Below are positions 37,799-40,260 of a DNA stretch of 64,000 nucleotides, piece after piece (position 1 is the first letter of the stretch; each line of letters begins with the position of its first letter). A program made the position numbers and the translations under genes. The stretch is from Bradyrhizobium guangdongense. Lineage in GTDB: Bacteria; Pseudomonadota; Alphaproteobacteria; Rhizobiales; Xanthobacteraceae. The notes under the pieces were generated by a model that saw only the letters and a list, made by a program, of their open reading frames with translations, was not told the origin of the DNA and did not search any database. The stretch spans positions 930,001 to 994,000 of the forward strand of contig NZ_CP030051.1 in NCBI RefSeq assembly GCF_004114975.1, read 5' to 3'.

Positions 37799-37827
37799 AA
37801 AAGAGCTGCCCGATCGGATCGGGCAGC
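37799..37827 (-). terminator. Hairpin terminator between convergent genes
   Basis: The arms GCTGCCCGATC (37805-37815) and GATCGGGCAGC (37817-37827) are perfect. On the minus strand the stem is followed by TCTTTTGC, so it is a good intrinsic terminator for the operon 39325-37858. It can also stop the plus-strand gene ending at 37784. Confidence 0.75.
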
Positions 37828-37857: not shown

Positions 37858-38286
37858 TCAGCGTGCCGTCGTCGAGGTGGTCGACATGGTCGGCTTCGAG
37901 CCCGGCACGTGCGACATCGTCTTGGTGGTCGAGCCCACTTCTTCGCCGGCCTTCACCTTTGTGCGCGTGTGCGAACGGCTGAACGTGCCGCCCTCATGCG
38001 CTTGCGCGCGGGCGTTGGAATTCAGCACCGGTCCGTTGCCCTTGTTCATGCTGACGCCGGTCTGGGTCTTGCCATTGACGGCGGCGGCGCTTCCACCAGC
38101 CGCGATCGAGGAGCCCGTGCGGCCGCTTGCCGAGGTGGACGTGCCGCCGGTGCCGACGGTGGAGGCGGAGGTGCCGCCTACGGCGGCCGAGCCGCCTGAT
38201 CCCCCGGTGATGCTGGTCTGCGCCAGCACAGGTGAGGTGGCGGCAAGCAGAAGTGCGACCGCCGAGGTCGTGATGAGTGTTCTCAT
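37858..38286 (-). CDS. Exported Gly/Ser/Thr-rich protein, third of operon
   Basis: This 142-residue protein has a signal peptide (TLITTSAVALLLAATSPVLA, then Q). A Gly/Ser/Thr-rich half contains STVGTGGTSTSAS, the same VGTGG motif as the repeat protein two genes upstream. The C-terminal part is basic and Ser/Thr-rich (RSHTRTKVKAGEEVGSTTK). There are no cysteines and no anchor. It starts 15 bases after the previous gene. Function is unknown; a secreted surface or matrix role is inferred from composition only. Confidence 0.72.
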   Translation of the reverse strand: MRTLITTSAVALLLAATSPVLAQTSITGGSGGSAAVGGTSASTVGTGGTSTSASGRTGSSIAAGGSAAAVNGKTQTGVSMNKGNGPVLNSNARAQAHEGGTFSRSHTRTKVKAGEEVGSTTKTMSHVPGSKPTMSTTSTTAR

Positions 38287-38301
38287 GTTGCAATCCTTTG
38301 T

Positions 38302-38655
38302 TCAGGGTGACGAGGTCGAGATCGTGCAGCCGTTGACGGTGATGGTGCTGGCGCTGGTCGAGCCGGGGCCACCTGCCGTCGATGACGAGCTTGAAACGTT
38401 GCCGCCACCGGCCTGCACATGCACCGACGATCCGCCGGCCGAGCTCGAGCTCGACAGCGAACCGCTTGATGCCGTCGATCCGGTCGTGCCTGAGCTGGAC
38501 GAGCCGAGCGCAGTGATGCTGCCGTCGGGATGTTTTTCGACCGTGACCTTGCAGGTGTCGCCGGAGGCCGTCTTGCCGGTCTTTTCGGTGGTTTCGGCCA
38601 GAGCGGTACTCCCCATCAAAGCCAATGCTGCAATCGCAATGATCGATTTGTTCAT
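38302..38655 (-). CDS. Exported Ser/Gly-rich protein with two cysteines, middle of operon
   Basis: This 117-residue protein has a signal peptide (KSIIAIAALALMGSTALA, then E). A short folded-looking part follows (GDTCKVTVEKHPDGSITALG), then a Ser/Gly run and a C-terminal STITVNGCTIS. Two cysteines, one in each end, could be linked across the low-complexity middle. The ATG at 38655 follows GGAGGAG, a strong ribosome site. No known family was recognised. Confidence 0.72.
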   Translation of the reverse strand: MNKSIIAIAALALMGSTALAETTEKTGKTASGDTCKVTVEKHPDGSITALGSSSSGTTGSTASSGSLSSSSSAGGSSVHVQAGGGNVSSSSSTAGGPGSTSASTITVNGCTISTSSP

Positions 38656-38716
38656 GGCAGTTCTCCTCCAACACGGACGAAGGAGCGGCATCGCTGCCGC
38701 TCCGTGGATCAAGGCG

Positions 38717-39325
38717 TCAATCCTTGTCTTTCTTCATCTCGTCCTTGTGGTGGCCCTTGCCCTTTTCCATGCCCATCTCGCTGGCATGGCTGCCGGACTT
38801 GCCGGCGTCGTCCATGTCGCGGGATTTCGACGAGCCGGACTGACCGACGGTCGAGCCGCCCGCTGCCGAGCCGCCGGTGCCGACGCTGGACGAGCTCTTG
38901 CCGCTGCCCGCCGACGAACCGCCGGTGCCGAGCGTGGAAGCCGAGCCGCTGCCCGAGCCGCTGCCCGCTGCCGAGCCACCGGTGCCGACGCTGGACGAGC
39001 TCTTGCCGCCGCCCGCCGACGAACCGCCGGTGCCGAGCGTGGAAGCCGAGCCGCTGCCCGAACCGCTGCCGGCCGCGGAGCCGCCGGTCCCGACAGTCGA
39101 GCTGCTGGTGCCGCCGCCCGCCGACGAGCCGCCGGTGCCGAGCGTCGACGCCGAACCCGAGCCGCTGCCACCGGCCGACGAGCCGCCGGTGCCGATGGTC
39201 GAATTGCTGGTGCCGCCGCCGGCGGACGAGCCGCCGGTGCCGACCGTCGAGCTCGATTGCGCAACGGCAAACGCCGTGCTGGCCAGCAGAGCGGCCGCAA
39301 CTGCGGAAAGCTTCACTATCCTCAT
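38717..39325 (-). CDS. Exported 35-residue-repeat Gly/Ser protein, first of operon
   Basis: This 202-residue protein has a signal peptide (residues 1-23). It then has eight copies of a GTGGS(S/A)AG core arranged as a 34-35-residue higher-order repeat (residues about 25-170), and a charged tail (MEKGKGHHKDEMKKDKD). The ribosome site GGAGGAG is strong. Composition is almost only Gly, Ser, Ala and Thr. The organisation resembles secreted structural or surface proteins, but no family is recognised. A shorter motif (VGTGGTST) recurs in the third gene of the operon. Confidence 0.75.
   Translation of the reverse strand: MRIVKLSAVAAALLASTAFAVAQSSSTVGTGGSSAGGGTSNSTIGTGGSSAGGSGSGSASTLGTGGSSAGGGTSSSTVGTGGSAAGSGSGSGSASTLGTGGSSAGGGKSSSSVGTGGSAAGSGSGSGSASTLGTGGSSAGSGKSSSSVGTGGSAAGGSTVGQSGSSKSRDMDDAGKSGSHASEMGMEKGKGHHKDEMKKDKD
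38865..39250. repeat. 105-bp tandem repeats inside the Gly/Ser gene
   Basis: CCGGTGCCGACGCTGG begins at 38874 and again at 38979, a period of 105 bases or 35 codons. A third, slightly diverged unit (34 codons) and two partial units extend to about 39250. The near-identity of units suggests recent expansion, so copy number may differ between strains. Confidence 0.8.
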
Positions 39326-39743
39326 TGTCGTCTCCTCCAGTTTCCAAAAATCGCCAAATCAGGCTCGGGATAAATTGGCAATCGCGCAAACGTTCCTTTG
39401 CATGCGCGCTGTTCGCAGCTGATCCGCTGCGTCTGCAGTTTCGCGGTGTGTGGGCAAACATCGAGAGCGTCTATTCATCTGCGGTTCATGCGTGCGCGGC
39501 TCTTCGCGCAGCGCAGAGTCACGATCTTGGGCAGGGCGTGTGTGCGGAGCGAACGCGAATGATGGTTCGCTCGATCTCGTCGGCTGTCGAAGGTGCGGCG
39601 GTCGGCGGCAGATTCCTGGACTACAAAAGCAGCGCGACGATCAGTGCGCGTGCGAGCAGAATTATTGAGTGACGGGCATCGGCGCCCTGCAATGAACCAA
39701 GCGCATCCGCGGCGGGCCGCCCCACGGCCCGCCGCGAGCGGGG
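39326..39743. other. Intergenic stretch with a GC-rich hairpin
   Basis: This region of 418 bases holds no gene that I can support. Its right end has a perfect 12-base hairpin, CGCGGCGGGCCG (39708-39719) with CGGCCCGCCGCG (39725-39736), just past the DUF1236 stop, a likely terminator for that gene. The left part should contain the promoter of the Gly/Ser operon. Confidence 0.6.
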
Positions 39744-40091
39744 TTAGTCGACTTCCTGGACGACCATGCGCGATTCCGGATCGACCAGCATCACGTGGCT
39801 GCCGGAATAGACGTAGCGATACTTGGTGAGCGAGGGACCCCAATCGCTCGGGACGGTCGCGAGCTCGACGTCGCGCGGGACCGGCGAGCCGACCACGATC
39901 TTTTCGTGCGTCTCGACCGGGCGGATCTTGTGCTCGGTGACGTAGGAATGGATCCTGGTGCGATACTCCGGCTCGATCTGCACGGTAGCGCCGTGCGCCG
40001 CGCCGGTCGTGGTCGTCGTCACAGTGGTCTGCGCCATCGCGCCCGTCGACACGAGCAGCGCGGCGGCTGAAATCAGCATGAACTTCTTCAT
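39744..40091 (-). CDS. DUF1236 exported protein
   Basis: This 115-residue protein has a signal peptide (KKFMLISAAALLVSTGAMA, then QT). The DUF1236 core follows (YRTRIHSYVTEHKIRPVE, then VVGSPVPRDVELATVPSDWG) and the C-terminal YRYVYSGSHVMLVDPESRMV. DUF1236 proteins are small exported proteins widespread in Rhizobiales, with unknown function. The ATG at 40091 is set by the signal peptide. It is divergent from the DUF2939 gene, 169 bases away. Confidence 0.85.
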   Translation of the reverse strand: MKKFMLISAAALLVSTGAMAQTTVTTTTTGAAHGATVQIEPEYRTRIHSYVTEHKIRPVETHEKIVVGSPVPRDVELATVPSDWGPSLTKYRYVYSGSHVMLVDPESRMVVQEVD

Positions 40092-40260
40092 CGCGTTCTC
40101 CCTCGCCGCTGGATGCGGCGCTGCGATGAACTCGGTGATCCAGCCGGGTGTTCCCCTGGGAACAGGAACAATTGCCTGTTTTTCCTCTTTTCGGTTCCGC
40201 AAGCGCATTCGCGTCTGCAACGATGTTGGAACGCAGCCTTCGGCTACCTGTTGAACCGGC

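Follow-up and report, generated by a model that had tools for sequence, protein, structure and literature searches.

Three adjacent minus-strand genes in the window (the whole stretch of 64,000 nucleotides of Bradyrhizobium guangdongense DNA that was analysed), here called g1, g2 and g3, are an accessory but tightly linked unit, and by their signal-like N-termini their products are exported proteins. The explanation we put first, and which we still hold slightly more doubtful than probable, is that the trio is a general-stress-inducible, self-contained, exported beta-sheet set whose members stack into a silk- or amyloid-like material protecting the envelope. Small-residue exported structural proteins exist, but the literature searched contains no account of such a stress-linked set of three.

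Gene arrangement and signals for translation and termination

Direct reading bears out the original prediction of three minus-strand genes lying close together, with gaps of 61 bases between g1 and g2 and 15 bases between g2 and g3, as well as of two GGAGGAG ribosome sites, which lie before g1 and g2 (Table 1). The ribosome site of g3, AAAGGA, is weaker. The length given for g2 is counted from the ATG; the list of open reading frames begins this gene 19 codons upstream at a TTG.

Table 1 Features of the g1-g2-g3 locus in the window.
Feature	Position	Strand	Description
g1	38717-39325	minus	predicted exported Gly/Ser/Thr/Ala repeat protein, 202 aa, signal peptide about 1-23, C-terminal tail charged
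g2	38302-38655	minus	predicted exported Ser/Gly/Thr-rich protein, 117 aa, signal peptide about 1-19
g3	37858-38286	minus	predicted exported protein, 142 aa, signal peptide about 1-22
Promoter-like element GGAAC-N16-ATTT	39372..39396	minus	GGAAC-N16/17-NGTT there in other genera
Leader block conserved among Bradyrhizobium copies	39353..39381	minus	from the alignment of 30 upstream regions
g1 ribosome site GGAGGAG	39332..39338	minus	read directly
g2 ribosome site GGAGGAG	38663..38669	minus	read directly
Terminator-like hairpin 3' of g3	37805..37827	minus	10 pairs and a T-rich tail

The hairpin terminator claimed for the 3' end of the set is present and begins 30 bases past g3. For hairpin-type sites the region as a whole is not above chance (3 sites, where shuffles average 2.2). 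Past g3, a T-tailed hairpin is kept in 24 of the 30 Bradyrhizobium copies including the window (7 of 150 shuffles), and outside Bradyrhizobium it is seen in 6 of 45 loci (1 of 225 shuffles).

Conservation of order and distribution

Protein searches returned 129 relatives for g2, 258 for g3 and at least 35 for g1. Named genomes were scanned with the g3 profile A1 alone, and the best 80 of 93 confirmed stretches were kept; their hosts are Bradyrhizobium, Bosea, Methylobacterium, Methylorubrum, Rhizobium, Neorhizobium, Pseudorhizobium, Ensifer/Sinorhizobium and several others. The profile located a g3 reading frame in 79 of the 80 loci, the match in the remaining one (L039) starting 15 bases from the contig end. 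Four of the 79 reach a contig edge before g1 (L007, L015, L030 and L053), the first three of them still having g2. Among the 75 loci with upstream DNA, 74 carry g1, g2 and g3 on the same strand and in the same order, where g1 was identified by its repeat pattern and g2 outside Bradyrhizobium by position and composition. The original prediction had staked itself on this order being kept across related strains, and kept it is. The gaps range across loci from 23 to 157 bases between g1 and g2 and from -8 to 49 between g2 and g3, with start codons chosen by script. The sole exception, L040, has the 3' part of g3 only, g1 and g2 being absent.

Deletion remnants with the 3' part of g3 only are seen in Bradyrhizobium at L040:4752-5285 and G563:C7:30290-30466, which may come from one and the same strain, and the L040 remnant is fused to a frame resembling the antisense of the DUF2939 gene that neighbours the operon in the window.

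Presence within the genus is patchy. A g3 match was found in 50 of 242 genus genomes and a g2 match in 49, the identical 49 genomes carrying both at full length and also giving a second, g1-like match (on another contig in three of them); the odd genome, G563, matches residues 83-140 of the g3 profile only and gives no g2 match. Wider samples contain g3 in 17 of 397 order genomes and 4 of 385 class genomes, and the genus, order and class counts may all be low, since 10-18 first-look candidates were scored per genome. With no match in 192 of the 242 genus genomes, the trio is not a core stress function.

Seventy-seven plasmid records match a Neorhizobium g3, Sinorhizobium accounting for 66, and in S. 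meliloti 1021 the operon lies on pSymB at about 650.6-652.1 kb of NC_003078. B. diazoefficiens SZCCT0449 (L018) is another of its carriers. The g3 tree, weak because of its few columns, groups the rows largely by genus or family, with Bradyrhizobium as one clade. We set aside the idea of a mobile island: this tree follows genus and family, and repeated loss fits the patchiness at least as well as transfer, a weak argument given the few columns.

Selection, export signals and flanking genes

Median dN/dS was 0.127 for g1, 0.129 for g2 and 0.145 for g3 (435 pairs each, from 29 Bradyrhizobium loci and the window). Values of 0.13-0.15, together with the conserved order and the co-occurrence of the genes, rule out chance or non-coding low complexity. 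Export signals had been claimed for all three proteins, and a simple rule, applied in place of a dedicated signal-peptide program and asking for Lys or Arg near the start, a hydrophobic stretch and a cleavage-like triplet, agrees: the N-termini that pass number 74 of 74 for g1, 63 of 74 for g2 and 72 of 74 for g3, and those that fail miss only the basic residue.

Clustering of the flanking ORFs (74 loci, up to 5 kb) gave two families that recur in at least three genus groups, at varying places; no flanking family stands at a constant place across genera, and no exporter is constantly linked within these flanks. Annotation of the flanks by family covered five neighbours in the window. As no flanking gene is constant, g1, g2 and g3 look self-contained, and as no linked exporter was seen, their proteins may stay in the periplasm.

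These flanks bear on the idea that the proteins are a surface matrix or adhesin, coating the cell and attaching it to roots, leaves or other cells in biofilms or plant contact. Many of the hosts are, by name, rhizobia or members of leaf- or soil-type genera, some copies lie on Sinorhizobium megaplasmids, and surface proteins often have Gly/Ser/Thr-rich repeats, all of which would suit such a role. With no anchor or exporter constantly linked, and with the patchy presence within the genus also speaking against it, we consider this role distinctly unlikely. The earlier proposal of a surface layer, matrix or adhesive stands in part: the trio is exported, as judged above, and is a conserved unit, and a matrix is plausible, while nothing favours the surface over the periplasm.

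Composition and predicted structure of the three proteins

The g1 protein of the window contains eight [VIL]GTGG motifs, four of them exact VGTGG, at spacings of 16 and 18-19, and g1 proteins across the loci carry 4-10 copies of S-[TS]-[VL]-G-T-G-G-S-[SA]-A-G, spaced mostly 16-19 and in some cases 26 apart. A VGTGG motif common to the first and third genes, as originally claimed, is indeed found, g3 carrying one such copy, with its anchors mostly 16-17 apart. The g3 profile A1 retrieves g1 in its own genome at E 2e-7, and at the level of sequence a relationship between g1 and g3 is supported. The C-termini of g1 in Rhizobiaceae (e.g., L038, L059, L060 and L071) bear the tail C[PA]PG[QL].KK...C; at that place Bradyrhizobium g1 has a charged tail and no cysteine.

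The N-terminal half of g3 is like g1 and its C-terminal half is conserved. An AlphaFold2 model built from 29 diverse sequences reached a mean pLDDT of 87.5 and a pTM of 0.73, values to be read with the caution that AlphaFold2 may be overconfident on repetitive sequence such as g3. The model predicts an eight-stranded beta meander whose strands, each 9-13 residues long, are connected by short turns. When the sides of each strand are taken as its alternate residues, and not from the model coordinates, strands 1-3 have small residues on both sides, and it is these strands that g1 resembles; strands 4-7 have one smaller, mostly uncharged side and one side rich in Lys, Arg, Gln and Asn. Conservation of the small side is good in strands 5-7 (mean entropy 0.28-0.65 bits, e.g., S103, S105, T107 and T109; S119, T121 and T123) but lacking in strand 4 (entropy 1.6); strand 8 varies. 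Invariant as well are F102, M124 and H126, which lie on the opposite side. There is hardly any hydrophobic core, and the structural matches listed for the g3 model include no significant or clear fold relative.

The alternating Thr/Ser pattern of g3 recalls the TxT faces with which insect antifreeze proteins order water or ice, and several hosts are leaf isolates. That the row S103-S105-T107-T109 and the row S119-T121-T123 order water or ice in an ice- or mineral-binding protein is nevertheless highly improbable: the g1 repeats present two Thr three positions apart and not a TxT row, g1 and g3 have no match among PDB sequences, and no antifreeze protein appears among the fold-search matches listed, although the last is weak counter-evidence.

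In g2 the original prediction had placed a cysteine at each end, and we find them at residues 35 and 110 of 117, flanking the low-complexity part. Exactly two Cys follow residue 20 in 73 of 74 g2 proteins, and four do so in one. The g2 model is poor (pLDDT 53): an unstructured middle lies between an N-terminal half with three strands and a C-terminus with two. Glycine makes up 31%, 16% and 18% of the mature g1, g2 and g3 proteins, respectively, and their GRAVY values are -0.53, -0.30 and -0.49. Aromatic residues are almost absent, with one Phe in mature g3 and none in g1 or g2.

Promoter-like elements upstream of the operon

Because many loci have GGAAC in a comparable position ahead of g1, we searched for the general stress motif. 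GGAAC-N16/17-NGTT occurs within 120 nt of g1, at 45-95 nt before the gene, in 40 of 45 non-Bradyrhizobium loci and was not found within that distance in the other 5. Shuffles average 0.175 such loci, and none of 200 rounds gave more than 2 of 45; our promoter shuffles ignore relatedness, which the spread over genera offsets in part. As a control, the motif precedes 5 of 308 flanking ORFs in the same non-Bradyrhizobium loci. It precedes none of the 45 g2 starts and none of the 45 g3 starts, and its presence at g1 together with this absence argues for one transcript. The EcfG1 motif of R. etli is GGAAC-N16-CGTT, according to PMC3892343.

None of the 30 upstream regions from Bradyrhizobium (the window and 29 loci) has the NGTT form, which makes EcfG control a weaker case in the window's own genus. 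GGAAC-N18/19-TT is found in all 30 of these regions (shuffle mean 0.87) and in 42 of the 45 other loci, and it precedes 6 of 200 Bradyrhizobium flanking ORFs taken as a control. The bases at the expected CGTT are mostly ATTT, CTTT or GTTT in Bradyrhizobium, a divergent -10. For comparison we looked upstream of nepR, which we regard as the first gene of the operon that holds the sigma factor itself, in 30 of the 31 genomes with a NepR match. A raw count gives GGAAC-N16-[CA]ATT, not CGTT, in 30 of 30 Bradyrhizobium nepR loci (L085, L091-L119), which suggests that a relaxed -10 for EcfG is tolerated in this genus. Such a similar drift of the -10 fits, without proving, EcfG control in Bradyrhizobium, and from these motifs we infer that the trio itself may be under EcfG control.

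Alignment of the 30 Bradyrhizobium upstream regions also shows a conserved leader block, TTGCCANTTTATCCCGNGCCTG..TTGGC, with the imperfect inverted repeat TTGCCA ... TTTGGC, a possible operator or leader structure. Seven loci of Methylobacterium/Methylorubrum (L035, L054, L061-L063, L066 and L067) have a second GGAAC-N17-NGTT about 284-299 bases before g1, besides the one near -63. Upstream of g1 in the window lies a gene for a DUF1236 exported protein (39744-40091, minus strand; PF06823, 70.6 bits), and by eye it has its own EcfG-like site, GGAAC-N17-AGTT, at 40129-40154, about 63 bases before the ATG; it is a putative second general-stress gene for an exported protein adjoining the operon.

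An EcfG-type promoter motif would also suit soluble, disordered, hydrophilin- or LEA-like periplasmic protectants that hold water and prevent aggregation in drying or osmotic stress and form no material, a reading we judge unlikely. Hydrophilins are defined by a glycine content above 6% and a hydrophilicity index above 1. All three proteins exceed the glycine figure severalfold, have few hydrophobic residues and negative GRAVY values, and the middle of g2 is modelled without structure. Their hydropathy is, however, only mildly negative and falls short of the limit of 1, g3 is predicted to be an ordered beta sheet, and a disordered protein would not be expected to show the conserved alternation found in g3 strands 5-7.

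Searches for known families and published accounts

The original prediction had recognised no family for these proteins, which holds: no Pfam or NCBIfam model scores above its cut-off; g1 and g3 have no match at all, and those of g2 stay below threshold. At E 0.01, Pfam gave no match in the 29 g3 and 27 g1 alignment members, and among the 30 g2 alignment members only Tcp10_C, in one. Among PDB sequences g1 and g3 have no match at E 1 and g2 has chance-level ones only, and Rfam returned a single chance-level match under the gathering score. Relatives are mostly named 'hypothetical protein' by their sources, and the two annotated records examined likewise have hypothetical proteins only. One source names a close g2 relative (P0015) 'cytoskeletal protein RodZ', for which we saw no other evidence, and a g1 relative (P0260) comes with the precomputed Pfam domain PF25137.

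Literature searches by peptide motifs (which returned one unrelated paper) and by the titles listed on glycine-rich proteins, general stress and desiccation did not find the trio proteins, in a body of literature with subscription journals mostly outside its scope, and EcfG dependence of the g1-g2-g3 operon was not found in print there. Supplementary regulon tables lay outside the search, so that single genes of the trio may already appear there among the stress-induced ones. Several S. meliloti genes were considered as members of the operon and set aside, on the parts of the sources available: SMb21442/21441 are a CBS-domain operon with a different promoter sequence, SMb21440 is reported as ChvI-bound with no tie to the operon (PMC6180224, PMC8343143, PMC3687685), and SMb21025/21026 encode acid-induced signal-peptide proteins, again with no tie to it (PMC2651895). 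The available parts of PMC4842269, PMC3420878, PMC3616915, PMC2912261 and PMC11387232 name no gene linkable to the operon.

A tentative model of an envelope-protecting material

Read from sequence, the operon, its export signals, its promoter motif and the selection on it are in place, and on them we build the stacking-sheet explanation named at the outset. During stress, SigmaEcfG, controlled by PhyR-NepR, would transcribe g1-g2-g3, and the signal peptides would take all three proteins out of the cytoplasm. There g1 would be the repetitive body, each repeat of about 16-19 residues contributing one G/S/T/A strand with one V, L or I, and since such strands consist of small residues with a single larger one, the sheet would be flat and closely packable; very small-residue strands suggest close stacking as in silk. 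Since g3 has three g1-like strands followed by strands with a small side and a Lys/Arg/Gln/Asn side, it could cap or orient the stack, and g2, with its cysteine pair, would be the disulfide-closed partner. Lying either in the periplasm or at the cell surface, the stacked sheets would shield the envelope in drying, osmotic or acid stress, a location and a target of protection that we infer solely from the promoter motif and the hosts.

The stress-type promoter motif and the predicted g3 meander make a structural, protective role more specific. Aromatic residues are common in known functional amyloids, and their near-absence in mature g1, g2 and g3 counts against an amyloid-like reading. In its most far-reaching form the proposal is a bacterial silk inducible by general stress, with g1 as repeat, g3 as cap and g2 as disulfide-closed partner co-assembling outside the cytoplasmic membrane from strands of mainly Gly, Ser, Ala and Thr, an undescribed protein class; in that form we regard it as somewhat unlikely.

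For 74 named loci, many of them rhizobial, there is now a testable unit where the two annotated records examined list hypothetical proteins only. EcfG-controlled functions beyond trehalose contribute to symbiotic competitiveness in B. diazoefficiens, as stated in PMC8092242, and the trio is one candidate for such functions. Should the trio indeed build a silk-like coat, such a material would have an unusually simple genetic origin here, and the general stress response would be connected with envelope protection.

Comparison with known systems

The nearest regulatory parallel is the alphaproteobacterial general stress regulon (PhyR-NepR-EcfG; RpoE2 in S. meliloti), with which the trio has in common the same GGAAC-N16/17-NGTT in 40 of the 45 non-Bradyrhizobium loci, whereas its Bradyrhizobium copies have a divergent -10.

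Tcp10_C, the G-box of the centriole protein CPAP, is a single-layer, fibre-forming beta sheet. The likeness lies in the rhizobial g2 proteins, which end in PDGT...SDGTC-like repeats, and in the predicted beta meander of g3. Sub-threshold Tcp10_C matches occur in 6 of 10 rhizobial g2 proteins (best 20.7 bits, E 3e-4, in L074), all under the Pfam gathering score of 36 bits. In contrast to Tcp10_C, g2 is bacterial, carries a cysteine pair and is, by its signal-like N-terminus, exported, and no Tcp10_C structure is among the fold matches listed.

Like the trio, curli and Fap functional amyloids are small, exported proteins with repeats whose genes share an operon. The trio differs in having no match to the curlin-repeat Pfam family, which we take to be PF07012, in its far smaller residues, and in having no secretion pore or nucleator gene at a constant place in its flanks (74 loci, up to 5 kb).

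Silk fibroin-type sheets differ from the trio in several respects: the g1 repeats are longer and each contains a single Val, Leu or Ile, the operon encodes two further proteins, and for the trio the basis is a monomer model of g3 and the repeat analysis of g1. What g1 has in common with them is the building principle, Gly/Ser/Ala/Thr strand motifs repeated head to tail.
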